Shown here: positions 1,472 through 29,915 of the stretch, piece by piece
Layout of the letters: the number at the start of each line of letters is the position of its first letter
Position numbering within the stretch: the stretch's first letter is position 1
Assembly (NCBI RefSeq): GCF_022919175.1
Contig: NZ_CP095043.1
Span: 496,001 to 560,000, forward strand
From: Leucobacter rhizosphaerae
GTDB taxonomy: Bacteria > Actinomycetota > Actinomycetes > Actinomycetales > Microbacteriaceae
Length of the DNA stretch: 64,000 nt
Direction of reading: 5' to 3'
The notes under the pieces: model-generated
Databases searched by the model: none
Seen by the model: the letters and a program-made list of their open reading frames with translations, nothing else
What the model was told of the DNA's origin: nothing
Program-made: the position numbers and the translations under genes

Positions 1472-1504
1472 GACACCAGCATCCCACAGTGGAACCTCAA
1501 GCCA

Positions 1505-3311: not shown

Positions 3312-3348
3312 CAGGTCGATCGAACCGATTGGCGCTCGAAGCACACGC

Positions 3349-11591: not shown

Positions 11592-12215
11592 GAACCCTCA
11601 CTGGTGGGTGCGATTGTACTCCTCGACGCGAACCCTGGATAGACGGTCGCGTGCGAATGCAGCCGCGCCATCTTGGTTGTTCCCAGCACGTCCGCTCCAG
11701 TCCATCGATGGCATCAGAGAGATGCAGCCCCACCGCTGAAATTTGGGGAGAGCGGTGGGGCTGCTGAAGGCAATGCCTTCCACACCGGAGGACGAGTGGA
11801 CTCCCAGTGCTGCCGCGCGGTTGGATGGGGTGTCAAGTACCGTGGCGAGAACGCAGAGCATCCTTTGCCACAACAACCGCGACGGCGGGTGTGTGAGATG
11901 TGTTACCGCAGGGACCCCTTCGGCATCGCATGCTCACGATATCCGCCCGCTTAGGGGACGAGCGAATACCTCAAAGGTAAGCGTCTGCGCGGACCGATCA
12001 TGGGACGATGCCAGTGAATCAGTACGCTCTGCCTCCAACTCTGAGTAGCCGCCGAGGCAGACTTACGTACAACGGCCACCCTCGGACCCCGGCAGGTGCC
12101 GAAGTCAGCGCCTACGGAGGGTGGGCGGGCTCGGTGAGTTGCGCGCGCCGATCACGACGCCGGTTGCCAGGAGGAGCCGGCGCAGCACCCAGGAGCGTCG
12201 CGGTGAACCGCCGAG
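11592..12215. other. 624-bp gap with one strong hairpin and no convincing gene
   Basis: This stretch between the 5' end of the first LuxR regulator and the 3' end of the GGDEF gene has less biased base use than its neighbours. Open frames here show no family features and unlikely composition. A leftward -10 candidate TACAAT (11618-11613) could serve the regulator. The only strong structure is the hairpin at 11724-11764. It could be a decayed mobile insert or a long regulatory leader. Confidence 0.5.
11724..11764. repeat. Perfect 14-bp stem hairpin
   Basis: Arms 11724-11737 and 11751-11764 (GCAGCCCCACCGCT and its complement) are perfect around a 13-nt loop. No T-run follows on either strand, so it is not a standard terminator. 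It lies about 130 bp upstream of the LuxR regulator start and could act in its leader. Confidence 0.7.
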
Positions 12216-13211: not shown

Positions 13212-13306
13212 ACGAGCGAGTCTAGCGAGACGCAGGAGAAGCGGGGGAGAGGGTGCGATACGGGTCGATGTGCTGGCCGCGCCATCGCGGCATCTGTCCG
13301 ATGAGG

Positions 13307-13319
13307 TATACATACACAC
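13307..13319 (+). promoter_or_regulatory. -10 box and leaderless start of the DUF1275 gene
   Basis: TATACA at 13307-13312 is followed by 7 nt and then the GTG start at 13320. There is no Shine-Dalgarno sequence, which fits a leaderless transcript beginning at the start codon. The divergent cyclase gene uses the same arrangement about 95 bp away. Confidence 0.55.
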
Positions 13320-14012
13320 GTGAAGTCTCTCTCAGATGCCGCATACGGCGGTTCGGTTCTCCTCGCCGGCGTCGCGGGGTTCGTCGACGCCATCGGCTTC
13401 ATCATGTCGGGTGGCCTGTTCGTCTCGTTCATGAGCGGCAATTCGACCCAAGCGGGTGTTGAGGTGTCCCAGGGAGCCGTGCACACTGCGTCGGTGGCAC
13501 TGTGTCTGGTGCTGGGGTTCGTGCTCGGAGTGACCTGCGGGCACCTCCTGGGAATCCGTTTCGAACGGGTGCGCTCGGCCGAACGAGTCCTCATCCTCGC
13601 CGGCGCACTGGCGATCGCGGTGGGCATCGTCACACTGGCACCGACCTCGGGATACTCGTTGGTGGCGCTGTCCGCCGTCATGGGTGCGATGAACACGCTC
13701 TTCATCGCCGACGGGCGAGCCCGGGTCGCCATCACGTATGCGACCGGCACCCTGGTCAGTTTCGGGATCGGCCTCGCCGAGCGCCTCTCCGGTCGGGCGC
13801 AGGGCTCATGGGTGCGTCCACTGCTGCTCTGGACCGGGATCACGCTCGGTGCGCTTGTCGGAGCGCTGACATGGCACCTCATCGGGCTCTGGTCGCTGGC
13901 GGTCGCGGTGCTCAGTCTGGTCGCGATTGGCGGGGTGCACCTGCTGATCCGACGCCGGAGTGCGCCACCGAAGACGGCGCGCTCGCAGCGGTCACCGGGG
14001 TCGCCGCGCTGA
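13320..14012 (+). CDS. DUF1275 (YoaK-like) membrane protein
   Basis: The 230-residue protein has six or seven membrane segments and the DUF1275 landmarks: GFVDAIGFIMSGGLFVSFMSGNST near the N-terminus and a later MGAMNTLF...ITYATGTLVSFGIGLA block. The family is common in bacteria and its transport substrate or role is not established. It is divergent from the diguanylate cyclase. Its 3' end overlaps the convergent HTTM gene by 101 bp, over the low-complexity tails of both proteins. Confidence 0.85.
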   Translation: MKSLSDAAYGGSVLLAGVAGFVDAIGFIMSGGLFVSFMSGNSTQAGVEVSQGAVHTASVALCLVLGFVLGVTCGHLLGIRFERVRSAERVLILAGALAIAVGIVTLAPTSGYSLVALSAVMGAMNTLFIADGRARVAITYATGTLVSFGIGLAERLSGRAQGSWVRPLLLWTGITLGALVGALTWHLIGLWSLAVAVLSLVAIGGVHLLIRRRSAPPKTARSQRSPGSPR

Positions 14013-15060
14013 CCTGACCCTGGGGAGCGACTCCGGCACTCCCGATCGTGTGCCGCCTGCCAGCGGGCCAGACACGGCCGAGACGATCGATCAGCGCGCG
14101 CCAGCTCCGATCCCGGATGAAGATCATGTCACCGAGGATCATCATCAGCGAGAACCAGGGGAGCGCCAGCAGGATCCCGATCCCGGCGTGCATGCCCGTG
14201 ACGACGACGAGGCCGAGGATCCTCGTCCAGCGGTTCAGGAGCATGAGCGGGAAGAAGAGCTGACCGTAGACCGCGAGCCAGGAGGCGAGGAAGACGGCCG
14301 GCGTCACCTGCCAGGCCAGGTGGTTCAGCCAGGGGAACAGCGTCAGTTCCTCGAGCTGCAGCGGATAGTAGGCCGCGACCCCGGAGATCCATGTCGACCC
14401 CTGCAGCTTCCACAGTGCGCTCGAGACGTAGATGACGCAGATCTGGTAGCCGATCAGCACCAGGGCGACGTTGTTCGCGAGGATCGGCGCCCATCGGGGG
14501 AGGCGCCCGTTCCGAACGCCGAGCGCGGGATCCTCCGCGCCGCGACGGGCGCGTCGGCGCGCATCGAGGGACCAGCGCTGCGACAGGTCCGCGAGCAGCA
14601 TGAACAGCAGGAAGATCCGGAAGGTCTGGTAGTGGCCGGTGTTCAGGATGACCGGATTGGTCAGGGTGAATCCGAGCCAGAGCAGCACGAACAGCGGGCT
14701 CGTCACCCGCATCCGCCAGCCCAGCGCGTAGATGACCGCGACGGCCATGAGGAGCAGGATCTTCGCCAGGCGGAGCGCATCGGGCTCATCAGCCGGAAAG
14801 AGCAGCGGGATCGGCCACAGGTAGTCGTGCACCGCGGACGATTGGGTGAGCGCCGACCCCCAGCGCGATCCCGCGCCGAATGAGTACGAGAAGTTCGGGA
14901 GGTACATCGCGAGGATGACGACCGTCATCGCACCGAAGCCGATGCGCATGATCGCGAGGCCGTAGGTGCCGTGGCGCTCGTTCAGGAACCAGACGCAGAG
15001 CCGATCCCATCCATCACGCACGAAGCTCGGATTCTGCGGTGTTCGCCGATCCGCGCTCAC
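13912..15060 (-). CDS. HTTM-domain membrane protein (gamma-carboxylase-like)
   Basis: The 382-residue protein has the horizontally transferred transmembrane (HTTM) pattern: an N-terminal amphipathic segment, several membrane segments, and conserved blocks YGLAIMRIGFG, NTGHYQTFRIFLLFMLLADLS and SSALWKLQGSTWISGVAAYY. HTTM is related to the membrane part of vitamin K-dependent gamma-carboxylase, but bacterial roles are largely unknown. The GTG at 15060 overlaps the upstream DUF5819 stop (GTGA), so the two are coupled. The last 45 residues are Ala/Ser/Gly-rich and overlap the convergent DUF1275 gene. Confidence 0.82.
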   Translation of the reverse strand: MSADRRTPQNPSFVRDGWDRLCVWFLNERHGTYGLAIMRIGFGAMTVVILAMYLPNFSYSFGAGSRWGSALTQSSAVHDYLWPIPLLFPADEPDALRLAKILLLMAVAVIYALGWRMRVTSPLFVLLWLGFTLTNPVILNTGHYQTFRIFLLFMLLADLSQRWSLDARRRARRGAEDPALGVRNGRLPRWAPILANNVALVLIGYQICVIYVSSALWKLQGSTWISGVAAYYPLQLEELTLFPWLNHLAWQVTPAVFLASWLAVYGQLFFPLMLLNRWTRILGLVVVTGMHAGIGILLALPWFSLMMILGDMIFIRDRSWRALIDRLGRVWPAGRRHTIGSAGVAPQGQVSAATPVTAASAPSSVAHSGVGSAGAPRQSRPD

Positions 15061-15872
15061 GGCAGCACCTCGGCCCGCTCGGCCCAGTTGGTGAACGTGC
15101 GCGCGAAGGCCTCGGGATCCTGGCCTTCCCACTCCATCGGCGGAACCCAGCCGAGATCCGTGTAGCTCGCGGCGGGCCGCTGCGCATCGGGATCGTGGCG
15201 GTCGTTCCACCGGATCACCGGGTCATACACGGCGCGCACCTGCACCCCGACCACCGAGCCGTCGTCGCCCCACAGCGCGTGCGCGACCTGCGTCGCATAC
15301 GACGTCGCGTAGTTGTCAGCTCGGATAAAGGCGCTCACTGCGACGGGCCGGGAGTCGTCGGCGGTGCGGAGCGCCTCGTCGAGCCCGAACAGAGCGTCAC
15401 CCTCCAGGTAGTTGCGCTGCGCTGCCGCCTGTTGTGGGGCGCTGAGTCGCTGATAGGCGGCCATGAGTCGCTCGGCACCGGTCACGGAGAGCTGCTTCCG
15501 GAGCACCTTCTGTGAGAGCGAGGAGAGTTCGACGTGCGTGGTGTTCACCCACTCGCTCGGCTCGCGCTCGCCGTTCTCGTCTTCGATCCAGGCGCGCACC
15601 CACAGCTGGTGGTCGGCGTCCGCCGGATCCGGAGCGAAGATCTTGTAGTCCTGGACCAGGTAGGGCTGCGCGTAGCGGTCGGCGAGTGCTCCGGGGAGCA
15701 CCTCGTACTTCACGCGATCCGACGGCACGTTCACGACGGCGGTGAAGAACATATGCACGGCGAGGAGTGCGACAGCCACGACGACGCCGACCAGTGCGGC
15801 CCGCGAACCGCGGTGGTCGATCCGCCCGCGATCCTGCTCCGGAACAGTCGACCCCTCCCGATGACCCCTCAT
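15057..15872 (-). CDS. DUF5819-family protein, single N-terminal membrane anchor
   Basis: The 271-residue protein has one hydrophobic segment (about residues 25-48, ALVGVVVAVALLAVHMFF) and an outside domain with YAQPYLVQDYKIFAPDPADADHQLWVRAWIE, characteristic of DUF5819. This family usually sits next to HTTM proteins, as here, and the pair probably forms one membrane complex of unknown activity. Translation is coupled to the HTTM gene through a 4-nt overlap. The ATG at 15872 is the only plausible start before the membrane segment. Confidence 0.8.
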   Translation of the reverse strand: MRGHREGSTVPEQDRGRIDHRGSRAALVGVVVAVALLAVHMFFTAVVNVPSDRVKYEVLPGALADRYAQPYLVQDYKIFAPDPADADHQLWVRAWIEDENGEREPSEWVNTTHVELSSLSQKVLRKQLSVTGAERLMAAYQRLSAPQQAAAQRNYLEGDALFGLDEALRTADDSRPVAVSAFIRADNYATSYATQVAHALWGDDGSVVGVQVRAVYDPVIRWNDRHDPDAQRPAASYTDLGWVPPMEWEGQDPEAFARTFTNWAERAEVLP

Positions 15873-15968
15873 TGCGCCCCCTCGCGCTCAGCGGAATATG
15901 GTCCACGCACGAAGCGGTGGCTTCCGGCAAAACTACTCCATCAGCCACCGCTCCGTCACGCGATGCGC

Positions 15969-18611
15969 TTACTCACGCGTGTGATCGACCCGCGGCTTCC
16001 GTCGGGAGGCCGCCACGATCACGGCACCCGCGGCGAGCACCAGCAGTGCGATCGGCACGACCGGCCCGGGATCGAATCCGGTCGTCGCGAGGCCACCCTT
16101 CGCGCCGGGCCCCCCGCCCCCGCCCGGCTCATTCGCCGCCACGACTCGGAAGTCTGCGGCGATGGCACCGGACTCGGCACCGACCAGCTCGACCGTGTGC
16201 ATGCCGAGGGAGGCGTTCGCCGGCACGTTCCACGTGAAGGCCACCTCACCCTGCGCGTTCGCGACCTGGGTCCCGAGCGCGAGTGGGGACGAGTACTGGG
16301 TTCCCGTCACGATCTCGCCGGGCAGGAATCCATAGCCGTAGGCCCGCTCCTGTTGACCCGGCATTCGCACGTCGTGTTCGAGCTCGATGGCGAGTTCGCC
16401 GCTCGGGTCCGTTCCGGGATCAGTGCCAGGGTCGGTGCCGGGATCGGTGCCCGGGTCGGTTCCTGGGTCAGTCCCCGGATCGGTGCCCGGATCGGTGCCC
16501 GGGTCCGTGCCCGGATCAGTTCCCGGATCAGTGCCCGGGTCCGTGCCCGGATCAGTGCCCGGGTCCGTGCCCGGATCGGTGCCCGGGTCCGTGCCCGGAT
16601 CGGTTCCCGGATCCGTGCCCGGGTCCGTGCCCGGATCGGTTCCCGGATCCGTGCCCGGGTCCGTGCCCGGATCCGTACCAGGGTCAGTGCCCGGATCGGT
16701 TCCCGGGTCCGTGCCCGGATCAGTGCCCGGGTCCGTGCCCGGATCGGTTCCCGGATCAGTTCCAGGGTCAGTGCCCGGATCGGTTCCCGGATCCGTACCA
16801 GGGTCAGTGCCCGGATCGGTTCCCGGATCCGTACCAGGGTCAGTGCCCGGATCGGTTCCCGGATCCGTACCAGGGTCGGTGCCTGGATCAGTGCCGGGAT
16901 CAGTGCCGGGGTCGGTCCCAGGATCAGTGCCGGGGTCGGTCCCAGGATCAGTGCCCGGATCGGTCCCGGGATCGGTGCCCGGATCCTCATCCAGCGCCGT
17001 CACCGTGGACGATCCGAACTCCAGCGCCACCGCGCCGTTGGTGGCGGCGTTGGGGAGCAAGCGCACCGCGAGTGCGCGGACGGTGAAGCTGTCCGCACCG
17101 AGGTCACCGGGCGTCGGCTGCTCGTTGATCGTGACCGTGGCGATCTCTCGGAGGACCGGACCGACGCCGTTCGTGAGCAGGCCAGACACCACCGGCTGCA
17201 GCGCTTCGGTGAGTGACGGCTGCAGATCGTCGATCACCTCGGTGAGCGCCGTGTCGAGCGCATTGCCGATCGGTTGCACGACGTCGAGGAGCAGATTTGT
17301 TAGCGGTTGCAGTACCGTGCCGACGGGAAGGCCGGCCACCTCGATCTGGGACGTGTCGAGCTCGGGCTCGTCGTACCCGTCGACGCCGATGAATCCGCCG
17401 ACGGTGCCGGACAGCGTGACCGGTGCGTTGACCAGTTCGAGCACGACGGTGACGGCGACCTGGATGTCCACGTTGACCTCGACGTTGTACAGTCCCTGCT
17501 GCACGAGGTCGACCGTCTTCGAGATGAGCGAGTTCTCGCCCGCGCCCGTCAGTGCGTCCGTGACACCGTCGAGGATCGCGTTCACGGTGTCGCCGTGCAG
17601 TACCTCGGTGTCTGCCGGCAAGGAGTTGAGATCAGTCGACCCCGTGCGATTGACCACGAGGCTCGCCAGATCGACCGAGATCGTTCCCGTGCTCAGGTCG
17701 ACGAGCACACTACCGTCCGTGTTTGAAAGCGGCTCCTCCAGCAAGGACGTTCGCACCTGCGTGAGCAACGGTTCAACATTGACCGATGCATCGTTCAAGG
17801 AGGCCGTCACCCCCGGGAGAGCGTCGAGGGCTCCCACGAGCTCGCTGAGCGTCGTTTCCAGCGCGCCTCCGGTGCCGAACACGCCCTGAATCGGCTGCAC
17901 GGTTGCAGCAAGCGTGGTGTCGACCTCGTCGATGAGCGTCGCCACGGCCGGGCTGTGGATCGTCGCGGTCACGTCGCTCAGGGCGTACTCGCTGCTCTCG
18001 TCGGTGAGCTGTTTGGTCGCGCGCGACCCTAGGGCGCCGATCTCGATCGAGGCCTCATCGACGAGCGTGTCGACCAGTTCCGGGGTGAGCACCTGGCCGA
18101 GCAGATCACTCAGGTCCAGGTTCGCGGTGCCGTACTCGCCGCTGTTGATCACGTCCAGGTTCAAGCCGCCTTCAGAGGTGATGAGGCCGGTTGAAGCGCT
18201 CGACGATGTGGCGCTCGGTGACGCGCTGTAGCTCGAGAGCGCCCCGAGATTGCCGAGCTCCAACAGGCCGGGGGCCTCCGGAGCGGGTTTGATCAGCGGC
18301 AGACTGACGGTACCGACTTCCAGCTCAGCGAGTCCTCCGAGCACCTCAACGTTGAGCGGGTCGGTCACCGGGCCCGGTGTGTCATCTGAGTTCGAGAGTG
18401 TGGTTCCAGCGCCTGCGACGTCGAGACCGAGCCCCTCCGCCCAGAGCCAGTGCCCATGCGCCGCGGATTCCGCGGTGACGGTGTGCGTGTCGGCGAGTGC
18501 CGCTGGCGCAGCCACGGAGGCGGATGCCAGCACCACGGCGGTCGTCGCGCCGAGCGCAAGCCCCCTGGTCACTCTTCGGCGACTCCGGGTCGCTTGGTCG
18601 TGAAGTTTCAA
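15969..18611 (-). CDS. Choice-of-anchor G-type wall-anchored surface protein with 48 DPGT repeats
   Basis: The 880-residue protein has a signal peptide (twin-Arg-rich n-region, core, cleavage after ALA-40). A long domain rich in paired LLDVVQPIGNALDTALTEV-type helices, typical of choice-of-anchor G proteins, spans about 41-540. Next come 48 DPGT tetrapeptides (about 543-734), an Ig-like module (about 740-830), and the LATTG signal at 841, a hydrophobic segment and an RRKPR tail. LAxTG is the class E sortase motif. The TTG at 18611 is preferred because AAGGGG lies 7 nt upstream; ATGs at 18629 and 18644 lack this. It is divergent from the second LuxR regulator. Its role is probably surface attachment or wall structure. 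Confidence 0.85.
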   Translation of the reverse strand: MKLHDQATRSRRRVTRGLALGATTAVVLASASVAAPAALADTHTVTAESAAHGHWLWAEGLGLDVAGAGTTLSNSDDTPGPVTDPLNVEVLGGLAELEVGTVSLPLIKPAPEAPGLLELGNLGALSSYSASPSATSSSASTGLITSEGGLNLDVINSGEYGTANLDLSDLLGQVLTPELVDTLVDEASIEIGALGSRATKQLTDESSEYALSDVTATIHSPAVATLIDEVDTTLAATVQPIQGVFGTGGALETTLSELVGALDALPGVTASLNDASVNVEPLLTQVRTSLLEEPLSNTDGSVLVDLSTGTISVDLASLVVNRTGSTDLNSLPADTEVLHGDTVNAILDGVTDALTGAGENSLISKTVDLVQQGLYNVEVNVDIQVAVTVVLELVNAPVTLSGTVGGFIGVDGYDEPELDTSQIEVAGLPVGTVLQPLTNLLLDVVQPIGNALDTALTEVIDDLQPSLTEALQPVVSGLLTNGVGPVLREIATVTINEQPTPGDLGADSFTVRALAVRLLPNAATNGAVALEFGSSTVTALDEDPGTDPGTDPGTDPGTDPGTDPGTDPGTDPGTDPGTDPGTDPGTDPGTDPGTDPGTDPGTDPGTDPGTDPGTDPGTDPGTDPGTDPGTDPGTDPGTDPGTDPGTDPGTDPGTDPGTDPGTDPGTDPGTDPGTDPGTDPGTDPGTDPGTDPGTDPGTDPGTDPGTDPGTDPGTDPGTDPGTDPGTDPGTDPGTDPSGELAIELEHDVRMPGQQERAYGYGFLPGEIVTGTQYSSPLALGTQVANAQGEVAFTWNVPANASLGMHTVELVGAESGAIAADFRVVAANEPGGGGGPGAKGGLATTGFDPGPVVPIALLVLAAGAVIVAASRRKPRVDHTRE
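16410..16985 (-). repeat. 48 tandem copies of a 12-bp unit encoding Asp-Pro-Gly-Thr
   Basis: Exactly 576 bp, or 48 units of 12 bp, encode an uninterrupted DPGT stalk. Units differ only at synonymous positions. Three consecutive identical 36-bp blocks (16765-16800, 16801-16836, 16837-16872) show that recent growth occurred in steps of three units. The 12-bp period keeps both strands open, creating long false frames on the + strand. The array should be length-variable between strains. Confidence 0.97.
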
Positions 18612-18957
18612 GGTCCCACCCCTTTTCATCCAGGAGGGAAACATGCGCTACATGATGTCCCTCGCACGATCAGTCGCTCTCATACGGGCAACTAGTCAGG
18701 AGGTTAGAGGCCCGTCGGCGAGGCCTCCTACGCCAACCGGGTGGCCTGAGAAACGGCGTCACGGCCATTCCGCATCGACGCCGGGACTACTGAGAGCTCC
18801 GCGTGTGTGCCCTGAGGCGACACGCCCGACACTTCCGATGCTCACTGAACAGATGTGGCCACCGTCCGAGAATTTTTCCCAGCAGCTACCCAGAAACGGC
18901 TAGAGTCATGCCCAAGGGGGCCTGAAGTCCGCTCCGTACCTCGGTGCGGGCCACGGA
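18612..18957. promoter_or_regulatory. Shared divergent region between surface protein and second LuxR regulator
   Basis: 346 bp separate the two start codons. On the regulator side a rightward -10 candidate TAGAGT lies near 18902-18907. An A/T-rich tract at 18871-18880 contains, on the minus strand, GGGAAAAAT. The same GGGAAAAT occurs in the equivalent position of the other surface-protein/regulator gap (25536-25543). No gene is convincing here. Confidence 0.5.
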
Positions 18958-21360
18958 ATGCACATGGACACGGGGAGCAATGGAGCGCCGTTTCGTCGAG
19001 AATTCCTCGACGAAACGAGAACACATCTGACCGAATTCGGCAACGTCCTACTGACCGGTCCGAACGGATCTGGCCGGAGCTATCTGCTGCGCAGAATGGC
19101 GGAAGCGTTGCGCAGGGACGCCCACGTCGTCACCGAGATCCGCTGCTCGGAGGCCGACGGCGCGGAACGCGCCGCACTCGCGCACCCGCTGTCCACGCTC
19201 ATCGTCGACGAGCTCGAGCTGGCGGACCCGCCGCTCCTCGAAGCGCTCGACGCGCACGTACTGAGCGGCGGCCCGCTCCTCTCAGCGCTCGACACCGGCC
19301 ACTGGCGGAGTCATCATCTGCTCGCCGGCAGTGAAGGTTCCGGGTTGCCTCCGAATGCCCAGCGGCTCTTGGATACGGCCCACCTCATGCCGATCGATCC
19401 CATGGATGCCCACGAACTCGAAACACTGCTCCACTCGCACTCGGAGACCGCCGTCGACTCGGATACGGTGCACACCATCTGTGCCCTGGCCGAGGGCAGG
19501 CCCCAGTGGGCGCTGGATCTCCTCACCATTGCACGCCACGGCCACCTGTCCAGCTGCCCGAGACCATCGATCTCGGGAGTGCTCTTCGGCGCAGTTCCCC
19601 TCCCGGCGGCGCGCAGCTTGAGCAGCGCAATCGGAGACATTTCTGCAGAGCTCGCCTCGATGGCGGTCGCACTCGCCGACTTCGAGTCTCGTGATCTCAG
19701 CGCTGTGGTCGAGCTCATCGGGGGAGAGGCTGCGCACCAGCTGCTCGATCTCGGAGTGTTGATCAGGACACCAGGGACCGAGCTCTATTCGGTCCCCCCG
19801 TTCGTCGGCTTCTCGCTCCACCATCGCGCGGATCCGAGCGAGGTATCTCGGATCCAAAACCTCATCGCGGGCCACTTGGTGACGCAGGAGGCACTCGGCT
19901 TCCCGATCACCGCGGCCGAGGCCGCGCAGTGCGCGCGAGTGCTGGGGACGTGGCCGGTCGCGACCGACGGTGCGCTGTCGCCCGTCGAATCCCGGATCAT
20001 CCAACGGGTCGCCGCCGACCTCCTCGCCTTCGATGAGGGATCTGCGGCACGCACGCTGCTGGTCCGTGCCGGGACCACCGATCACCCGGAGGATCCGCTG
20101 CACCGCACGAAGTCACTGATCGTGCTCGCTGGACCCGCGGCGGGACTCCGTGAACTCGACGCGCTGAGTTTCCCGGACGGCAGCAGTGATGCGGTCGCGG
20201 CGGCCTTCCTTCGTGCGCAACTCGTCGCTGCGGTCGGGGGTCACACGGACATCGCCACCGGACCGGTCACCGACGATCTCGCCGCGGTCTTCCGTGTGTG
20301 GAACACGCTGGGAAGAGGCCCGAACGCGCTGTCCGGCGACCCCGGGCCGATTCAGAGTCTCGGGTTCCCCGAGCTCACGAATGCCGCACGTGCCTTCTCC
20401 GTCCTCGACCACGTCCTCGCCGGCGTCGTGCCCGACGGAACATGGTTGGCGACCGGGGAGGACATCCCACTCCCGACGGTCGAGGTCTCACGGCAGTTCG
20501 AGCCGCTGCTCGCCACGACACTCCTCGCGCATACGGTGGTCGCCCTGCTGTCCGGAGAATGCGCGTCGCGATCCAACGAACTTCGCGAGGCGGCGGGCCG
20601 ACTGGCGCCACGGGCGTACCACCGCCGCTGGATCCGCCATCTCGAAGCGACTGGTACTGCGCTCGCCTCGGGAGATCTCGGTCGCGCGCGATTGGAGTGG
20701 TCGGGGTTGCAGGCACGCGCACCGCGCTTCATTCCCGTGCGCCTCCGCGATGCCCTCGATCGCATTGCGCTCGCGATCACCGAGGTCTCGCAGGATCGAA
20801 CCGTGGGCTCCACGGCGCCCGTTGGCATCGAGATCGAGCGACGCATCGTGTCATACCTGTCCGGGCAGATCGAGCACGTGCCCCGCCGACCGTTCTCGGC
20901 GGGACCCGCCACGCCGCTGCCGTCGCTCCGCCTCGCGGAGGCGCACCTCGCGGCGTCGGAGGAGCAGAATCCAGCCGAGCTTCTCCGAATCGCGGAGGAG
21001 TTGCAGCGCCGCGAGCTCTGGACTCCCGCGGCATTCGCGTACACCGAGGCGCGCGCCATCCTGCTGAGCCGACGGGCATCCGGGGGTGTCCGCCGGTGCG
21101 ACGCCAGGATCGCCGAGTTCACGGCTCGGCTGCGTCAGCGCGTTCGATGGCATCGCCCCGGTGACTTGCCGACGAGCAGCCGCGTCAGGCTCACCCCCCG
21201 CGAACGGTCCGTGGCTCGTCTCGCGGCCCAGGGAATGACGAACCGGCAGATCGCCGAGCGACTCGGGTGCAGCGCCAGAACGGTCGAGTCGCACCTGGCT
21301 CAGGCACGGTCGAAGCTCGGCGCGTCGAGCCGGGACCAGATCGCAGAACTCCTGTCATAG
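18958..21360 (+). CDS. Large STAND-type LuxR-family transcriptional regulator (second of three)
   Basis: The 800-residue protein has Walker A TGPNGSGRS at about 33-41, Walker B LIVDELELAD at about 81-90, a helical repeat middle, and a C-terminal LuxR domain from about 745 with LTPRERSVARLAAQGMTNRQIAERL and ARTVESHLAQARSKLG. It is a LAL-like regulator without a recognised ligand domain. The start at 18958 (or the ATG two codons later) has only a weak upstream GGA. It is head-to-head with the DPGT-repeat surface protein, so that gene is the first candidate target. Confidence 0.86.
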   Translation: MHMDTGSNGAPFRREFLDETRTHLTEFGNVLLTGPNGSGRSYLLRRMAEALRRDAHVVTEIRCSEADGAERAALAHPLSTLIVDELELADPPLLEALDAHVLSGGPLLSALDTGHWRSHHLLAGSEGSGLPPNAQRLLDTAHLMPIDPMDAHELETLLHSHSETAVDSDTVHTICALAEGRPQWALDLLTIARHGHLSSCPRPSISGVLFGAVPLPAARSLSSAIGDISAELASMAVALADFESRDLSAVVELIGGEAAHQLLDLGVLIRTPGTELYSVPPFVGFSLHHRADPSEVSRIQNLIAGHLVTQEALGFPITAAEAAQCARVLGTWPVATDGALSPVESRIIQRVAADLLAFDEGSAARTLLVRAGTTDHPEDPLHRTKSLIVLAGPAAGLRELDALSFPDGSSDAVAAAFLRAQLVAAVGGHTDIATGPVTDDLAAVFRVWNTLGRGPNALSGDPGPIQSLGFPELTNAARAFSVLDHVLAGVVPDGTWLATGEDIPLPTVEVSRQFEPLLATTLLAHTVVALLSGECASRSNELREAAGRLAPRAYHRRWIRHLEATGTALASGDLGRARLEWSGLQARAPRFIPVRLRDALDRIALAITEVSQDRTVGSTAPVGIEIERRIVSYLSGQIEHVPRRPFSAGPATPLPSLRLAEAHLAASEEQNPAELLRIAEELQRRELWTPAAFAYTEARAILLSRRASGGVRRCDARIAEFTARLRQRVRWHRPGDLPTSSRVRLTPRERSVARLAAQGMTNRQIAERLGCSARTVESHLAQARSKLGASSRDQIAELLS

Positions 21361-21400
21361 ATCTTCACCGTTCGCGCGGGATCCGGGATACGCTCGGGGC

Positions 21401-21604
21401 ATGACCGACGACCAGGGCCGGGATCCGTACGCGGGGATGATCGGGTACATCTCCGGTGGCCTGGTCGCGGGCATGATCCTCGGAGTCGTGATCGGGTTGC
21501 TGCTGCCCTCGATCGGCGTGGGCTTCGGGATCCCGATCGGCATGATCCTGGGGATCTCACTCGGGCTCGCGGTGTGGTTCGCGCGCCAGGGCACCCGCAA
21601 GTAA
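21401..21604 (+). CDS. Small two-helix membrane protein of unknown function
   Basis: The 67-residue protein has a charged N-terminus (TDDQGRDPY) and two hydrophobic segments (about 13-33 and 39-58) separated by a Pro-Ser turn, ending in RQGTRK. TACGCT ends 6 nt before the ATG, so a leaderless transcript is likely, although GGGG is also nearby. It lies 40 nt after the second LuxR regulator. The function is not recognised. Confidence 0.6.
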   Translation: MTDDQGRDPYAGMIGYISGGLVAGMILGVVIGLLLPSIGVGFGIPIGMILGISLGLAVWFARQGTRK

Positions 21605-21639
21605 CAGATCAGCACCGTCGATCCCGCGGACCGTCGCCG

Positions 21640-22899
21640 TCACGGTTCTCGCGGACCGCGTCGGATCCAGAGCACCCCGGGCACGAGCGCCACCGCCGCG
21701 AGCACCAGCATGAGCGTGCGGTACGGATTGTCGGTGAACAGTCCCGGGACGAGCGCTGTGGCGGCGAAGACCACTCCGAGGCCCAGGAGCGGGCCGACGA
21801 ACTGGCCGGCCGCGCCCGACGCGCTGAAGGCCCCAATGAACCTGCCGTCACGACCCGGAGGGGCCGCCTCCAGCGCCGCCGCCAGCAGCACCGAGTTCAG
21901 GATCCCGATCGCGAATCCGCTGACGAATGCGGACACCCCGACCACCGCCACGGCCTCCGCGAACCCGCGCAGACCGAGAGACACCATGAGCACCAGAGAA
22001 CTCACCAGGATGCAGCCGCGTGCGTGCGACACGAATCGCGGACGTGCGTAGAGCGCAGCGGTCGCGCAGACGAGCCCGGCAATCGCGGCGATGAGCAGAC
22101 CGACCGCCATCTGCACGGGCACCGCGTCACCGTCCTCGGATCGGGCCGCAAGCTCCAGCGCGTGCGCGGCGAGGTAGGCGGCGGCGACCGCACTCACGCA
22201 GAGCTGAGACGCCAACAGCAGAGCGGGATGCACCCGCCGCACCGGTGCGCTCACGGCGCTTTCGGAAATGGGAGACGCGCCCAGTTGCGCCCCCGAGCCG
22301 GCACGCTGCGGCGCGAAGAAAAGGAACATGGCCGGAACAGCGCAGCTGACGAGCGACAGCACGAACGTCGTCTGCCACACGAGTTCCGGTGCGACGAGGA
22401 GGACGCCGAGCGGCAGCGCGAGGCCCACGTAGGCCCCGAGGATCATGATGACGGCCCCTCTGCTGCGGTGGCGCGGCAGCGCAGTCGCCAGGAGCGCGCG
22501 CAGCACCGCCATTGCACCGGAGTAGCCGCCCTGCGCAATGCCCCAGCCCACGAGCAACGCGCCGGGCGAGACACCGGTCACCGCGATCACCAGTCCGAGC
22601 GTGCCCACGACCGTTGCCGCAAGCACCAGGGTCCAGCGTCGGAAGGCCGACGCGCTTCCGATGTCGGCGATGCGGCCGACGAGCAGTGCACCGATGATGG
22701 CGCATATCGACCCCGTGCTCATGGTCACGGCGACGATGCCCGCGACCTCCAGTCCCGAAGCGATGTCCGTCGCGCGGGCGGCGATGCCCACCGCGACGGG
22801 TGGGGTCAGCGCCGCGAGCAACGTCAGTTTCGCAAGGTTCACGAAGAACGCGACCCGGAAGGACGCGCGCTCACCGGCCGTCGACATCGGACCCGTCAT
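21640..22899 (-). CDS. MFS transporter
   Basis: The 419-residue protein has twelve predicted membrane segments with MFS loop features, such as GALLVGRIADIGSASAFRRW after helix 2 (the GxLaDrxGxrr-like loop) and a second-half SGFAIGILNSVLLAAALEAAP segment. The ATG at 22899 (GGA 7 nt upstream) lies inside the 3' end of the third LuxR regulator, overlapping by 29 nt. The two are therefore one transcript, and the transporter probably belongs to that regulator's response. The substrate is unknown. Confidence 0.85.
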   Translation of the reverse strand: MTGPMSTAGERASFRVAFFVNLAKLTLLAALTPPVAVGIAARATDIASGLEVAGIVAVTMSTGSICAIIGALLVGRIADIGSASAFRRWTLVLAATVVGTLGLVIAVTGVSPGALLVGWGIAQGGYSGAMAVLRALLATALPRHRSRGAVIMILGAYVGLALPLGVLLVAPELVWQTTFVLSLVSCAVPAMFLFFAPQRAGSGAQLGASPISESAVSAPVRRVHPALLLASQLCVSAVAAAYLAAHALELAARSEDGDAVPVQMAVGLLIAAIAGLVCATAALYARPRFVSHARGCILVSSLVLMVSLGLRGFAEAVAVVGVSAFVSGFAIGILNSVLLAAALEAAPPGRDGRFIGAFSASGAAGQFVGPLLGLGVVFAATALVPGLFTDNPYRTLMLVLAAVALVPGVLWIRRGPREP

Positions 22900-25441
22900 G
22901 GATGAATCCGGCTTCGCGTGCCACCCGGATCGCCTCGGAGCGGCGACGGACCCCGAGCTTGCGGTGCACCTGCTTCAGGTTCCACTTCACCGTTTCTCGG
23001 GAGAGGTGCAGTGCGGTCGCGGTCTCCTCAATGCTCCCCGAGTGCTGGATCGACTGCAGCGTGCGGGCCTCGGCCTTCGAGAGTGGCACGAGCACGTGCG
23101 CCTCTGCAGCGATGCTGTGCTCGACCGGCAGCCCGGGCGCGAGCAGCGCGAGGGCCCCGGCGGATTCCGCCGACAGGGCACGCATCGGTAGCCCCAGGTG
23201 CAGGGCCTGGAGGAGCTCGCTCGCGCCCGAAATGCGAGCGGTCGCTGCAGAGGTGTCGCCGGCGCGCCGCGCGCTCTCGGCGCCGATGATCAACAGCTCG
23301 GTCCGGATCCTGGGGGAGCGCAACGCAGCCGGCTGATGGAGGAGTGCGCCGACCGTGAGCGACGCCTCGTCGAAGCCACCTCGGCTCATCGCGGCGTACA
23401 CGCTCGCGAGCGTGGCGGTGCGCTTCCGCCGATCAGCCCCGATGCGCTGGCCGGACTGCCACCGCAGGCGCGCGCGAAGCGACTCGAGCAGTGATTGCGA
23501 ACTGGGGAAGACCCCGAACCGATGTTTCCTCCGGTGCAGCTCGCGCTCGAGACGCTCGAGCGCCGGCCCGGGACCGCCCGAGCTCTCCGTGATGAGCGCG
23601 TGCAGCATCACCAAATGCGGCCAGTGCTCGATCGTCGCCTCGTGTTCTTGGAGTGCGTCGAGGTGCTCGGCTGCCGCCTCAGGCTGCCGAGCTTCCAGGT
23701 CGAGGAGTGCCGCGCCGATCCGGTACCCGGCACCGAGGTACGAGTGAGCCCAACCAACGGGCTCTCTCAGCTGTTCGCATCGCACGAGTCGCGAGCGCGC
23801 GGTGATCAAGTCGCCGTTCCACGCGGCCGTCCAGAGCGCAAGGGAGTTCGCGTGGGCTCGAGTTTTCGGCTCCAGTCGGTCGGGCCAGTTGAGCAGCGGC
23901 GCGAGCGCCTGTTCCGCGGCGAGACTGTCATCCGCGTGGATGAAGGTGACTGCCGCGTGGCGCAGAGCGCTCTGGAGCGGAATCCAGGCGTCCGTCCGCT
24001 CCTCGGGGCTGAACTGCTCGAGCAACGCGAGCAGCCGATGGGCCAGCTCCACACTGAGCGACTCGTTCCCCGCGAGGCGCGACACGATCATCCGGAGCGC
24101 TGTGGCGGACAGACCTGGAAATCCCGGCTCCTCGGAGGCCGCGGCGAGACCCGTGCTGGCGAGCACCCGAAGCCCGGAGAACAGCCGGGCGATGCGTCCT
24201 TTCGGAAAGGCGTACTCATCGATCAGCGCGAACGCCCCGATGATCGGGTACTGCTCCTGGATGTGCTCCGGAACGTCCGAGAGCCGGTGCGGCATGCGAT
24301 CCCGCGTCACAGGCGCAATGTCTCCCTGCAGCAGGAGCTCACTCAGCACATCCCACTGCTCGCCGATGATCGCGGCCTGCACCGCGAGCCTCGGTCGCGC
24401 CGATGCGAAGGCGGGTGCGGCTCGACCCGCGAGCGTGCGCAGCTCATCAGCGCCGACCAACCCCTCGGCACGTCGCATGATCTCGTCACGGACCATCGTC
24501 TGGTGGTGGAACCAGAGCTCGCCATTCTCCTCGAGCCAGGAACCGAAATGCGCGTCGATCACACGCTCAAGAAGTATCTGAGCCTCGGTCGGCGAGACGT
24601 CCAGCATGCGCTCGAGGACCGTGGGCGAGACCTGTTCGAAGAGGGCCGTCGCGCACAGCAGCCGATGCTCGGCGGGCGTGCCAGACGTTATCGTTGCCTC
24701 GATCAGCGACGCCACCACCTGCGCGGGGCGACCTCGAGATCCCGCGATGGCCTCCTCACCCTCCGCGATCAGGGCGAGCACACCCAGCATCCATCCGCGG
24801 GTGCTCCGGACCAGGTGGGCTGCCGCCTGCTCCCGCTCCGTCGACCGGATCTCGGGGACGCGCGCGGCCAGGAGTTGCGCGACCTCGCTCTCGGAGAGCG
24901 CCAAGTCATCTGGGCCGAACTCGCACACGGGGAGCCGAAACCGGGTCTTCGGGCCGGCAAGCTCGGCGGGCCGCCGTCGCGAGGTGACGATCACACTGAG
25001 GTCGGGCACCTCCTCGAGCATGGTGACGAGCGGCCGCTGCGTGTCGAGGGGGAGCCCCGCGGGAGCGCCATCCAGCACAAGCACCACCCTTCGGCCCAGC
25101 GACACGAGCATCTCACGCAGGCCGGGGTGAGGATCGCCCGACGAGGATTCGACCAGGCCGGCTCGGGCGATGGCGCCTGCCACCCGTTGCCACAGCGCTC
25201 CCGGGGAGGTGTCGGCGTCCGAGAGCTCGATCCAGAGTGCCGAACCTGCTTGATCGTCGATGGACCCCGCTTCGGACGCTAGCGTGCGCGCCACCGTCGC
25301 CGCGAGCACGGACTTGCCGCTCCCGCCAGGACCGTGGATCAGTGTGAGCGCCGGACGCTGCGAAACGACGCGCCGCAACAGCAGCGGCCGCGGAAGCATG
25401 TGGTGGCGGGTCACCGGGAAGAAATGCGCGTCAGCCGGCAT
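22871..25441 (-). CDS. Large STAND-type LuxR-family transcriptional regulator, MalT-like (third of three)
   Basis: The 856-residue protein starts MLPRPLLLRRV..RPALTLIHGPGGSGKS, with the Walker A at about 37-44 in the MalT style, then VVLVLDGAPAG as Walker B. A long helical middle with TPR-like repeats and a C-terminal LuxR domain follow, the latter from about 787 (LSKAEARTLQSIQHSGSIEETATALHLS, then TVKWNLKQVHRKLG). The KWNLKQVHRKLGV recognition helix is MalT-like. It is head-to-head with the LPxTG surface protein (193-bp gap) and cotranscribed with the MFS gene. The inducer is unknown. Confidence 0.87.
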   Translation of the reverse strand: MPADAHFFPVTRHHMLPRPLLLRRVVSQRPALTLIHGPGGSGKSVLAATVARTLASEAGSIDDQAGSALWIELSDADTSPGALWQRVAGAIARAGLVESSSGDPHPGLREMLVSLGRRVVLVLDGAPAGLPLDTQRPLVTMLEEVPDLSVIVTSRRRPAELAGPKTRFRLPVCEFGPDDLALSESEVAQLLAARVPEIRSTEREQAAAHLVRSTRGWMLGVLALIAEGEEAIAGSRGRPAQVVASLIEATITSGTPAEHRLLCATALFEQVSPTVLERMLDVSPTEAQILLERVIDAHFGSWLEENGELWFHHQTMVRDEIMRRAEGLVGADELRTLAGRAAPAFASARPRLAVQAAIIGEQWDVLSELLLQGDIAPVTRDRMPHRLSDVPEHIQEQYPIIGAFALIDEYAFPKGRIARLFSGLRVLASTGLAAASEEPGFPGLSATALRMIVSRLAGNESLSVELAHRLLALLEQFSPEERTDAWIPLQSALRHAAVTFIHADDSLAAEQALAPLLNWPDRLEPKTRAHANSLALWTAAWNGDLITARSRLVRCEQLREPVGWAHSYLGAGYRIGAALLDLEARQPEAAAEHLDALQEHEATIEHWPHLVMLHALITESSGGPGPALERLERELHRRKHRFGVFPSSQSLLESLRARLRWQSGQRIGADRRKRTATLASVYAAMSRGGFDEASLTVGALLHQPAALRSPRIRTELLIIGAESARRAGDTSAATARISGASELLQALHLGLPMRALSAESAGALALLAPGLPVEHSIAAEAHVLVPLSKAEARTLQSIQHSGSIEETATALHLSRETVKWNLKQVHRKLGVRRRSEAIRVAREAGFIHDGSDVDGR

Positions 25442-25634
25442 GGGATGGATCCGACGGCGCAGGCATACGTCTCAATCTACCGATTCCACGGGACGTGCGG
25501 GCCTGTGCGGGATGCCGAAGAGGGGGAAATGCGGGGGGAAAATCCGGCCGATCGATCTCAGGTGGGTTCGCGCCGCCTACTCTGACGTCGGGAATGACTG
25601 TGCCGATTCGGCAATTCACTGGGACGAGGGAACA
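25442..25634. promoter_or_regulatory. Divergent region between third LuxR regulator and LPxTG surface protein
   Basis: The 193-bp gap contains a leftward -10 candidate TAGATT (near 25480), a purine tract with GGGAAAAT at 25536-25543 and a short palindrome GCCGATTCGGC just before the surface protein's ribosome site. The purine tract resembles the one in the gap before the second regulator. No gene is seen. Confidence 0.5.
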
Positions 25635-28600
25635 ATGACGTATCGAGGCAAGCGACCACCGGCGACGCCCGCTCGGCGACTCCTGCACGCGGGGGCGCTC
25701 GTGAGCGCATTCGCCATGGTGGCTGGACTGCTGTCGGTTCCTGCGGCGTTCGCAGAGGAGACCGCACCCGAGACCTCGACCGAGGGAACCGCACCGGCCG
25801 CGCCCGCAGCCGAGGAAGCGACGGCGACCACCGAGGGGTCCGAGCCGGGACCGGAGACTCTCGAAGTCCCGGTGGCCGTGGATGCCGCCCCCATCATTCC
25901 GTTCGCGGCCGGCGATGGCACCCTCTCCGTTGTGCTCACGCAGCAGACCGGCACGGAACCGTTCCAGGACAACGACGATGCGGGCAACGATTCCGGCCCC
26001 GACAATGACATCGTGCGCACGAACGACTCGGTGACGTATAACGTCAGCGTCCGCTTCGAGGGCTCGGAGCACACCGCCCCGACGATCACGTTCGACCTGC
26101 CGCAGGGCGAGGAGCTCGTGTCGCTGCCGCCATTCTGTCTGCCGGGCTCGAGTGTGACACCGGCCTCGTTGCCGGCGCCGCCGATTCCCGTCGTCTCGAC
26201 GAGCTGGGAGTCCCTGCCGACGCAGTCCGTGACGTGCATCGTCGCCGATCAGGCGCAGGGTACGTCGCTGGACTACCGCTTCGTGTCGAAGGTGCGGCCT
26301 GAGGTGCCGAACGGCACCGCGCTCACCCCGGTGACTGCGACTGCCGCCTCGCAGGAGACGGCCGCCCCGTCGGTCTCCAACGAGGTGTCGCACTCGGTGT
26401 CGGCCGCGGCGAACTTCGATGTGTCGAAGCGGACCCGAGCAACGACCGATAACAGTGGCCCCTTCTTCCAGCAGTTCTTGGCGTGTACCTTCGACGCCAC
26501 GAAGCTCTGTGTGCGGATGGAGTTCCCGCTGACGATGGAAGCCCCATCGAACGGCAAGGGGGTCACACCACTGGCTTCTCCGATCGTGGTGACCGAAGAC
26601 CTCCGGCCTGAATCGTTCTTCGGACCCGGGGTGACGTCCTCGCCGGAGTGGATCGCCGCGGGCGCGGGTGCGCTGGAGAAGTACGCACCGCGCATCACGG
26701 GGTGCTCCTATGGGCACCCGAATCTGTACGGGTCGCTGCCGAATCCCTGGCAGGGAGCGCCGGACAACGCGGTTCGCGATAGCGGCACCATCACCTGCGT
26801 GCAGACCGAACTCGGCACTCCGGTCGACATCACCTTCACCGACGCAGACACGACCGCGTACACCGTGCCGACCAATGCCGTCGGTGGGCCCGCTCTCCCT
26901 GCAGACTCCGGGTACGTTCTCGCGACATCGATCCGTATCGAGGTGCCATTCGAAGCGATTCAGGACCTCGGTCTTCAGGAGGGCGACGCGTACACGCTCA
27001 ACTGGTCGAACAACTACTCCGAGGTTCAGGCCACCGCGATTGATGGCAGCCCCAACTTGGGGGAGGCGCCTGAGAACAATGTCCGGTCAGGAAGCACCCG
27101 GTTTGAAGCCGGATCGGGCAACTTCAGCTTGACGAAGGGGTTCAGCGGCGTCACCGGCGCCCCGGGGAACACTCCGTCCGGGAAATACACGAACTGGGAG
27201 TTCGAAGGACCTCCCGGATCCTCTCGTTTTCTGGATGGCAACACTGTGGTGCTTCCGGGTCAGACCGTCATGAGCAACTTGATCGTCCATCACGAGCTCC
27301 TCCCGCTCTCCGCGACGCAGAATGCTCGTTCGTTCGTCGCCTGTGATGTGTGGGACAACACGAAACTCGCGATGCCGGAGACATTCAATCTGCCGGCAAC
27401 ACCATACACTCGAGTGCAGTTCGCATCGAACGGGTCCCCCGCATGGCTCTCCAGCGTCATTCTCGATGAGTGGTGGACGAGCGCTGACGATCTGCAGAAC
27501 CTGCAGGTCGAGTACGGGTACACCGCGACTCCCGGGTCCGCTGAGAATTCCGACTGCGACTCCGGCACCTGGGCATCGACTCCCGGCGCAGTAGCCGGGG
27601 CCTCCGTCGTCGATGGCACATGGCAGGGCGTGAACCGGGTCCGGTTCTCGTTCAGTTCCGAAGCCGGCAACGTGTCGAACCAGATGTGGGTGAACTTTAC
27701 GATCGCGATGAAGGTGCTCGAGGGCGCCGGTGCGAACGGCACGATCATCCCGAACTACGCCAGCTTGCTGACCCGTGCCGGGGTGCACACCCTCGACGAG
27801 GTCGTGGCGACACCTGACACGACCCACCCGTCAAGCTACAACCCGGGGACAAATGTCGGGTCACGTGGCGACCGACTCATCGTGGGTGAGGCGTCTGCGC
27901 GGATCAAGAAGTTCGTGAAGAACCCGACCACGGGCCTGTTCACGGATTCGGCGTCGCCGCAGTACACGGCCGGATCGACGGTGGAGTACCGCCTGACTCC
28001 GTCGCTCACGGCGGATGCGTCGGTCACGGGTCTCACCCAGAATGTCACGGTGGAGGATTGTCTGCCGCGGTATCAGTCCTTTGTGTCTTCCGCGCGTGAG
28101 AGTGGTGCCCCGATTGTGCCGGTGATCGTGCAGGAGGGGTCGCCCGCGGGCGCGGAGGTGACCTGCGGTGCCGGGCAGACGTATGTGAAGTGGGATCTGG
28201 GCCCGCAGGAGATCAATGTCGCGATAGATCCGATCATGTATCAGGTCGAGATCGGTGCGACGGCCCGGAACGGGGTGTACACGAATACCGCCGTGGTGGC
28301 GTCTCCGGGGGATCCGACGCGGGTGAGCGCGCGGACGTCGACGGCGCAGATCCAGTTGGTGGTGCCGACGGGGATCAAAATCGCGAAGACCGTGGATAAG
28401 CCCCAGGTCGAGTCGAACCGGGAGGGTCTCGCGTACCCGCGCTCGTTCACCTGGACCATCGATTTCGTGAATATCGATTCCCCGGCGCAGGTGTCCGATG
28501 TCGATGTCATCGACGTGCTCCCCGCGGACGGGCGTGACGGGTCCGCGTTCACCGGGACCGTGGACCTGAATGACGTGTCGGTGTCTGCAGGTACCGGGAT

Positions 28601-29915
28601 TCAGGTGCTGTACACGAGTGCCGCTGCGGCGTCCCTGGTCGTGGATCCGAGCGACCCGTCGAACCAGAGCACGGGTGCGACGACGTGGTGCGACGCCGCC
28701 ACCGGTGGCTCGGTCGTGAGCGGCACCGGGACCACGGCTGCGTGCCCGGCCTCGGTGTCGGAGGTGACGGGGCTCAGGTTCGTGCGTCCGGGGTCGTTTG
28801 GTTCGGCGGACGAGTTCACGGTGAAGGTCACGATGACCCCGCAGGGGAACACGGCGGGGGATGTGTACGAGAACCGGACCTCCGGTCGCGTCGTCGGCGT
28901 GACGCAGCCCGTGGGGCCCGCGGTGCGACAGGTCGCTGTCATCGCCTCCGCGGTGGGGGATCGGGTCTGGGAGGATCTCAACCAGAACGGCCTCCAGGAC
29001 GAGGGCGAGCCGGGGGTGGCCGGGTTCCCGGTGCGTCTCCTGGGTACTGATGTTGACGGCAACCTCGTCGACCTGGAAACGGTGACGGACGCGGACGGGA
29101 ACTACCGGTTCGAAAACCTCGCCTCCGGCACCTACCATGTCGTGTTCGACCCGAACGGGTTGAATTCGAACACCACGTTCACGATCCAGCATGCCGGTGA
29201 TGACTCGACGATCGATTCGGATGCGGACACGGTCACGGGAGAGACCCAGGACTTCGCTCTCGGGCAGGACACCGAGGACCTCACCCTCGACGCGGGTCTC
29301 ATCATCGACCGGAACGTGAACATCGTGCTCGACAAAACGTACCTCGGCGCCACCGACCTCGGCACGGGCAACCGCACGACGGTGACGTACGAACTCACCG
29401 CGACGAACACGGGCACCGCGGAAGGGGTGTACGACCTCACCGACGACCTCGCGTACGGCGGCGACATCACCATCGGAGACGTCACGGCCCGGAACACGGT
29501 ACCGGGTGGCATCGCCACGAACCCGGGCTTCGACGGGCAGACCGATACCACGGTCGTAGCGGCAGCAGCACTGCCGGGCGGAGCGACGCACACGTACCTC
29601 GTGACCGTGACCGCGGACATCGCGACAACGATCACGACCGAGGACACCGTGTGCGACATCACGGCAACCGAGACCGGGAGCGGGTTCCTCAACGAAGCCG
29701 CCCTCACCGTCGACGACGTCACCGTCACCGACAAGGTCTGCGGCAACCCACCCATCCCACAGGCACCGACGGATCCGACGACACCGCAGCACCCGATCCC
29801 GGGCCTCCCGGTGACCGGCGGACAGCTCACCGGCATCACGGCCGCAGCACTCCTGCTGCTGGTCGCAGGCGCGGCCGCAGTGATTCTCCGGCGACGCCGG
29901 CACGTGGAGCACTAA
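25635..29915 (+). CDS. Large LPxTG wall-anchored surface protein with SdrD-B and DUF11-like domains
   Basis: The 1426-residue protein has a signal peptide ending AFA-40, an Ala/Glu/Thr-rich spacer, several beta-rich adhesin-like modules (about 85-1100), and an SdrD_B-type Cna-B domain (about 1106-1225) with VGDRVWEDLNQNGLQDEGEP and DADGNYRFENLASGTY. A DUF11-like module (about 1229-1368, TVTYELTATNTGTAEG) follows, then LPVTG at 1391, a hydrophobic stretch and an RRRR tail. Sortase would link it to peptidoglycan. The ATG at 25635 follows GAGGGA by 4 nt, and earlier in-frame starts lack a signal peptide. It is divergent from the third LuxR regulator. Confidence 0.88.
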   Translation: MTYRGKRPPATPARRLLHAGALVSAFAMVAGLLSVPAAFAEETAPETSTEGTAPAAPAAEEATATTEGSEPGPETLEVPVAVDAAPIIPFAAGDGTLSVVLTQQTGTEPFQDNDDAGNDSGPDNDIVRTNDSVTYNVSVRFEGSEHTAPTITFDLPQGEELVSLPPFCLPGSSVTPASLPAPPIPVVSTSWESLPTQSVTCIVADQAQGTSLDYRFVSKVRPEVPNGTALTPVTATAASQETAAPSVSNEVSHSVSAAANFDVSKRTRATTDNSGPFFQQFLACTFDATKLCVRMEFPLTMEAPSNGKGVTPLASPIVVTEDLRPESFFGPGVTSSPEWIAAGAGALEKYAPRITGCSYGHPNLYGSLPNPWQGAPDNAVRDSGTITCVQTELGTPVDITFTDADTTAYTVPTNAVGGPALPADSGYVLATSIRIEVPFEAIQDLGLQEGDAYTLNWSNNYSEVQATAIDGSPNLGEAPENNVRSGSTRFEAGSGNFSLTKGFSGVTGAPGNTPSGKYTNWEFEGPPGSSRFLDGNTVVLPGQTVMSNLIVHHELLPLSATQNARSFVACDVWDNTKLAMPETFNLPATPYTRVQFASNGSPAWLSSVILDEWWTSADDLQNLQVEYGYTATPGSAENSDCDSGTWASTPGAVAGASVVDGTWQGVNRVRFSFSSEAGNVSNQMWVNFTIAMKVLEGAGANGTIIPNYASLLTRAGVHTLDEVVATPDTTHPSSYNPGTNVGSRGDRLIVGEASARIKKFVKNPTTGLFTDSASPQYTAGSTVEYRLTPSLTADASVTGLTQNVTVEDCLPRYQSFVSSARESGAPIVPVIVQEGSPAGAEVTCGAGQTYVKWDLGPQEINVAIDPIMYQVEIGATARNGVYTNTAVVASPGDPTRVSARTSTAQIQLVVPTGIKIAKTVDKPQVESNREGLAYPRSFTWTIDFVNIDSPAQVSDVDVIDVLPADGRDGSAFTGTVDLNDVSVSAGTGIQVLYTSAAAASLVVDPSDPSNQSTGATTWCDAATGGSVVSGTGTTAACPASVSEVTGLRFVRPGSFGSADEFTVKVTMTPQGNTAGDVYENRTSGRVVGVTQPVGPAVRQVAVIASAVGDRVWEDLNQNGLQDEGEPGVAGFPVRLLGTDVDGNLVDLETVTDADGNYRFENLASGTYHVVFDPNGLNSNTTFTIQHAGDDSTIDSDADTVTGETQDFALGQDTEDLTLDAGLIIDRNVNIVLDKTYLGATDLGTGNRTTVTYELTATNTGTAEGVYDLTDDLAYGGDITIGDVTARNTVPGGIATNPGFDGQTDTTVVAAAALPGGATHTYLVTVTADIATTITTEDTVCDITATETGSGFLNEAALTVDDVTVTDKVCGNPPIPQAPTDPTTPQHPIPGLPVTGGQLTGITAAALLLLVAGAAAVILRRRRHVEH

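Follow-up and report, generated by a model that had tools for sequence, protein, structure and literature searches.

A conserved, helically phased repeat array suggests dedicated control of a choice-of-anchor G surface-protein operon by a STAND-LuxR regulator in Leucobacter

In a 64,000-nt stretch of the Leucobacter rhizosphaerae genome (contig NZ_CP095043.1, positions 496,001 to 560,000; hereafter the window), two large LuxR-type regulators, P0002 and P0003, each lie head to head with a gene for a big sortase-anchored surface protein, P0001 and P0004 respectively. Does this layout reflect dedicated control of surface display, as the original prediction held, and if so, through which DNA element? 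Both divergent pairs, P0002 facing an LAxTG gene and P0003 facing an LPxTG gene, are borne out by open reading frames (ORFs) and profile matches, as are a third STAND-LuxR regulator (P0005) and a GAF-GGDEF diguanylate cyclase gene nearby (Table 1). When checked for recurrence in related genomes, the first pair passes and the second fails, and the two-module pattern appears to reduce to a single module, the second pair being a coincidence of position. For the first pair, we put at roughly three in four the probability that P0002 is a dedicated STAND activator, similar to MalT and IniR, which acts on a phased array of TCTCAGTAGT-type repeats and switches on the genes for the choice-of-anchor G (chG) protein P0001, a DUF5819 protein and an HTTM-domain protein.

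The pairing of P0002 with chG recurs across the genus. In a first set of 60 genomes, 37 of them from Leucobacter, P0002 relatives (E 1e-15 or better) were found in 22 genomes, the window's own included, with at most 17 candidates scored per genome, so that undercounting of absences is possible; chG was the divergent neighbour of 21 of these 22 relatives. Seventeen further Leucobacter genomes were held out, unused in motif derivation, and six of them carry the regulator, each time facing chG. In total, the regulator is present in 28 of 54 Leucobacter genomes and divergent from chG in 27 of the 28. The genes that follow are conserved as well: DUF5819 and HTTM genes come after chG in the window and in all 17 first-set relatives whose contig extends (three loci, L113, L122 and L127, were left out of this count since their contigs end early).

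The gap between regulator and chG holds a conserved element that the original prediction overlooked, namely TCTCAGTAGT-type direct repeats every 21–22 bp, derived here from a side-by-side reading of 21 gaps. The heptamer TACTGAG occurs in 19 of the 21, while no 7-mer exceeded six in 20 shuffles. Pairs of CTGA at 21–23 or 43–45 bp number 39 (mean 1.2 and maximum 6 in 200 shuffles), and at least one such in-register pair is present in 19 of the 21 gaps. The element first proposed had been a GGGAAAAT tract common to the gaps of both pairs. The window holds a single exact copy of the octamer, in the second gap (25536-25543); the first gap carries GGGAAAAAT on the minus strand. With up to one mismatch, GGGAAAAT has 9 matches in the window against 10.25 expected, and a tract of this type was seen in none of the 20 other chG gaps. 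As a shared operator it was rejected, being at chance level and unconserved.

The array is also set at regular distances from a putative chG promoter. A TAnnCT hexamer lies 30–150 nt after the first core in 17 of the 21 gaps, and all 17 are found at 64–65, 86–87, 107 or 131 nt. These distances step by about 21.75 nt, or two helical turns, so that lineages differ by whole steps. In several loci, the window among them, the nearest TCAG copy stands 42–43 nt before the -10-like box. Moreover, the exact 10-mer ACTACTGAGA occurs once in the window's own genome (one 3.34-Mb contig), inside the P0002/chG gap; at up to one mismatch it has 33 matches there, versus 49 for a reversed control. A wider regulon was considered and rejected, as a second in-register CTGA accompanied only one (L187) of the 29 checked among the 32 one-mismatch sites in this genome. 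Of the 17 exact 10-mer sites in the held-out genomes, 13 (L268 included) lay outside any regulator/chG gap; over the 54 genomes of the genus the exact sites number 66, the majority of which fall away from the module and were treated as background.

P0002 itself combines an N-terminal STAND NTPase fold with a C-terminal LuxR/GerE helix-turn-helix (HTH) domain (PF00196, 63.9 bits; cut-off 23.5). It is distinct from two characterised regulators of this general build: the IniR equivalog model (NF038181) gives 44.2 bits against a cut-off of 750, through the HTH only, and the MalT equivalog model (NF003420; cut-off 537) gives 20.6 bits for P0002, again for the HTH only, and 43.5 for P0003, neither of which is thus MalT. 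Relatives of the P0002 family in PDB, by sequence, are HTH and general ATPase matches. None of 32 plasmid records covers 80% of P0002; among the matches listed, coverage is 8–20% and at the C-terminal (HTH) end.

Together, these features suggest the following sequence of events. P0002 would be activated, with a cytoplasmic ligand and nucleotide as the probable triggers, and would then oligomerise upstream of the chG -10 box, on the helically phased direct repeats of TCTCAGTAGT type that follow one another at intervals of about two DNA turns. Once bound to the array it would switch on a chG-DUF5819-HTTM operon, presumably transcribed as one unit, which would yield the sortase-anchored surface protein together with two membrane proteins that may aid its maturation.

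The held-out gaps fit this scheme, with the core in six of six and the hexamer in phase in six of six (at 107, 87, 64, 86, 130 and 87 nt). Four of these loci were first met through an exact-motif search, and a later full listing of regulators added two that lack the exact 10-mer. Several observations weigh on the other side. Three of the six held-out gaps group with training gaps, and L331 and L332 are unclustered, so that these are not six independent trials. Among the original 21 gaps, L116 and L128 have no in-register CTGA pair, L116, L123 and L128 have the core and no phased TAnnCT, and L125 has neither. One P0002 relative of the 28 (L114, in genome G032) stands without chG, and two of the 28 regulator genes (G026 and G075) span two frames and may be frameshifted. 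Finally, the Walker A lysine is not intact in P0002, which reads GPNGSGRS with Arg in place of Lys; the P-loop Lys is kept in 11 of 20 aligned members of the regulator family and replaced in nine (seven Arg, one Gln, one His). ATP use by the family is uncertain because of these replacements, and we describe P0002 as a STAND-like fold that would work in the manner of a LAL regulator, with canonical ATP use left out of the claim. The unlinked regulator P0005 likewise has Arg at the P-loop position. In L116, L123 and L128, TTTGCT is found 78 or 122 nt after the core in place of the phased TAnnCT; these loci possibly use a different promoter arrangement.

Could the array instead belong to some other DNA-binding protein that controls chG, with P0002 a neighbour acting elsewhere? 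The array is indeed placed for chG, whereas its distance to the aligned start of the regulator varies, and P0002 is its presumed binder. However, of the 19 chG genes whose fetched stretch lacks a P0002-type match, none is preceded within 700 bp by the core or by a TCAG pair at 21/22 bp; when the search was widened to 2500 bp, because some of these genes are second in an operon, a single lone core-like match appeared (L134). The converse case, the regulator without chG in L114, has no core upstream. An exact core that is unique in its own genome likewise suits a dedicated neighbour more than a regulator of broad reach, and we consider control by another protein rather unlikely. Repression of chG and of the regulator itself from the shared gap, with release by a signal, would suit the general tendency of divergent regulators to act on both promoters. 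The sites, however, precede the chG -10-like box by whole-turn steps (about 43–131 nt) and do not cover it, an activator-like placement that makes such repression quite unlikely. As for the pairing having been kept by vertical descent alone, with no functional link, all 28 counted regulators do come from one genus; yet 25 gaps fall into 17 clusters without detectable alignment, of which 16 retain the core and 13 its phased -10 hexamer, and descent alone is therefore a highly improbable account. Dedicated activation of chG by P0002 is the reading we prefer.

The second pair gives a different picture. P0003 and P0004 are divergent across a 193-bp gap and could form a genuine dedicated pair that arose recently in this species. 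In one other genome, G005, which has two weaker P0003 relatives (L151, near a transposase-like gene, and L152), the L152 gene (8145-10685) is interrupted by an internal stop, and at a distance of 1 kb there are divergent genes for sortase-anchored proteins with IPLTG and LPLTG motifs (11686-17280), which is a point in favour of such a pair. Relatives of P0003 at E 1e-40 or better are present in only three other genomes of 54 (at most 17 candidates scored in each), at 38–39% identity (L148, L149 and L150). In all three of these best relatives the adjoining gene encodes an MFS transporter, as it does for P0003, and in none does a sortase-anchored gene face the regulator; on its divergent side, L148 has a gene for an ABC-transporter lipoprotein at a distance of about 1 kb. 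From the other side, no P0003-type regulator is divergent from a P0004 relative in 15 fetched regions (drawn from a longer list and including one paralogue from the window's own genome), although near L157 there are a short HTH gene and, at a distance of about 7 kb, a weak relative of P0003. The P0003/P0004 gap contains no 5–6 nt direct repeat at 20–23 or 42–44 bp, and shares with the upstream regions of P0003 relatives only matches of 8–14 nt. Nor do matches above 60 bits to P0003, P0004 or the MFS protein occur in the fetched flanks of L108-L128. A recently formed dedicated pair is thus unlikely, and P0003/P0004 was rejected as a second copy of the module for want of recurrence among relatives; a P0003-MFS unit and the P0004 surface gene probably lie side by side by chance. 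The predicted dedicated control of a surface gene is hence well supported at the sequence level for P0002 and chG, through the 27-of-28 pairing and the phased array that held in the held-out genomes, and is not supported for P0003 and P0004.

The products of the chG operon are recognisable from their domains. The P0001 ORF on the minus strand runs 15969-18644 and, with the upstream ATG at 18644 as its start, would encode 891 aa; a TTG at 18611 is the likelier start, because relatives (judged by eye) use TTG. The protein matches the choice-of-anchor G model NF033766 with 209.6 bits (cut-off 45) and ends in an anchoring signal, read by eye, of LATTG, a hydrophobic stretch and a basic tail; the LAXTG and LAVTG models match it below their cut-offs. 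Its fold has no Foldseek match at E 0.001, and residues ~237-486 are a lead as a candidate TULIP-like fold (BPI/SPLUNC1-type domains). The HTTM gene probably starts at a lower coordinate than its listed ORF, and its product falls outside the SdpB family (TIGR04033, 39.9 of 178.4 bits), matching the broader HTTM domain only. A GGDEF gene follows HTTM in the window and in 6 of 21 fetched relatives, several other stretches ending soon after HTTM; the GGDEF genes of two relatives, when scanned, had PAS-containing architectures in place of the GAF-GGDEF of the window, and any link of the module to cyclic di-GMP is weak because of this difference.

The same gene kinds also occur in other combinations. 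Runs of chG-DUF5819-HTTM without any P0002-type regulator match and without the array are found at L129, L130 and L132. The L334 locus (G070) carries, some 3 kb away from its regulator/chG module, an additional DUF5819-HTTM pair (1347-3219) with no chG match of its own in the fetched stretch. L268 (G061, 2118-6073) holds a DUF5819-HTTM pair without a chG match, with TACTGAG-type words in a repeat run just upstream.

How far does the module extend beyond Leucobacter? In the family Microbacteriaceae, chG was present in 133 of 349 sampled genomes and in 50 of 85 genera. From this family listing we chose 40 non-Leucobacter loci (the choice was not random), of which 13 have both DUF5819 and HTTM genes in the stretch. 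Ten of the 40 match the P0002-family profile, or nine once L291 (29 bits) is dropped, and four of these nine regulators are directly divergent from chG (L302, L318, L321 and L323). By their scores, L318 and L321 (468 and 460 bits, versus 762–883 for four Leucobacter loci in the same run) are clear P0002 relatives, while the remaining matches (68–143 bits) may be general LAL proteins. TACTGAG or CTCAGTA is found upstream of the regulator in five of the nine (L285, L287, L295, L302 and L323), L318 and L321 not being among them. The pairing thus reaches beyond the genus, given that L318 and L321 are clear relatives, to an uncertain extent. Outside Leucobacter, the LAL-type regulators at L285, L287 and L295 stand opposite an operon that combines genes for secreted proteins with a chG paralogue, and CTCAGTA is found upstream of the regulator match at a distance of about 200 bp; the L285 operon includes a signal-peptidase-like gene and an LAxTG gene. 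One may picture a new class of dedicated lipid- or envelope-sensing switches spread across Microbacteriaceae, in which a STAND-LuxR protein, often with a degenerate P-loop, would act through a phased array to control the display of a wall-anchored protein that contains a lipid-binding domain of TULIP-like fold and is matured by an SdpAB-like membrane pair; we regard this generalisation as doubtful.

Table 1. Positions of the genes and DNA elements discussed, in window coordinates.
Feature	Position	Strand	Details
P0002, STAND/LAL-type LuxR regulator, 800 aa	18958-21360	+	N-terminal P-loop NTPase fold, helical middle, C-terminal LuxR HTH
P0001, choice-of-anchor G (chG) surface protein	15969-18611	-	NF033766; DPGT repeats; LATTG sorting signal
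DUF5819 membrane protein gene, next after chG	15057-15872	-	PF19136, 107.7 bits (cut-off 27.1)
HTTM-domain (SdpB-like) membrane protein gene	13912-15210 (listed ORF)	-	PF05090, 33.2 bits (cut-off 27.7)
GAF-GGDEF diguanylate cyclase gene, downstream of HTTM	12216-13319	-	PF00990, 5e-25
Operator-like array: core TCTCAGTAGT at 18786-18795 (read on -), which reads ACTACTGAGA on the other strand; TCAG (CTGA) also at 18746-18749 and 18812-18815	18746-18815	-	Successive copies 44 and 22 bp apart
Putative -10 box TAACCT of chG promoter	18701-18706	-	87 nt from array core
P0003, second STAND-LuxR regulator, 856 aa, outside the conserved module	22871-25441	-	GerE, 25.6 bits
MFS transporter gene, overlaps P0003 3' end; conserved partner of P0003	21640-22899	-	
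P0004, SdrD-B domain LPVTG surface protein, 1426 aa	25635-29915	+	PF17210, 106.5 bits
P0005, third STAND-LuxR regulator, unlinked to chG module	9009-11591	-	38 bits to P0002

Actinobacteria commonly carry large STAND-LuxR (LAL) regulators, of which, to our knowledge, few have a known operator or target. In the set of papers searched there was no mention of 'choice-of-anchor G', of 'DUF5819', or of 'choice-of-anchor' together with 'LuxR', and papers on Leucobacter sortase, choice-of-anchor or LuxR-family and surface proteins included, by title, none on this unit. Within the literature searched, the unit of regulator, operator and operon is undescribed, and it is built from known kinds of parts. 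Target operon, operator sequence, spacing and promoter phase of a LAL regulator are here all predicted from genomes and directly testable, and the locus places choice-of-anchor G proteins and the DUF5819-HTTM pair in a gene context, with a candidate logic for their control.

Among known systems, the membrane-protein genes recall SdpA/SdpB of the Bacillus subtilis sdp operon, where a small membrane protein is likewise encoded beside an HTTM/SdpB-like one; DUF5819 may be linked to SdpA. The partner here is a wall-anchored protein, and the SdpB model cut-off is not reached. P0002 shares with MalT of Escherichia coli and with LAL regulators the order of NTPase, helical sensor region and LuxR HTH, and, like the array, MalT sites are repeated upstream of target promoters; target and site sequence differ between the two. 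The mycobacterial IniR-iniBAC system, whose IniR model P0002 matches in the HTH alone, has IniB and dynamin-like proteins as targets (PMC5760070), whereas here the target would be a sortase-anchored protein with DUF5819 and HTTM proteins. The operators of SARP and SARP-LAL regulators (AfsR, PMC10936776; PimR, PMC5930380) are bound through a SARP domain in place of the LuxR HTH of P0002, and their 3' repeat lies 8 bp from the -10 element, where the nearest copy here is about 43 nt away; they have in common with the chG array that direct repeats, spaced by one or two turns of DNA, are set relative to the -10 box.
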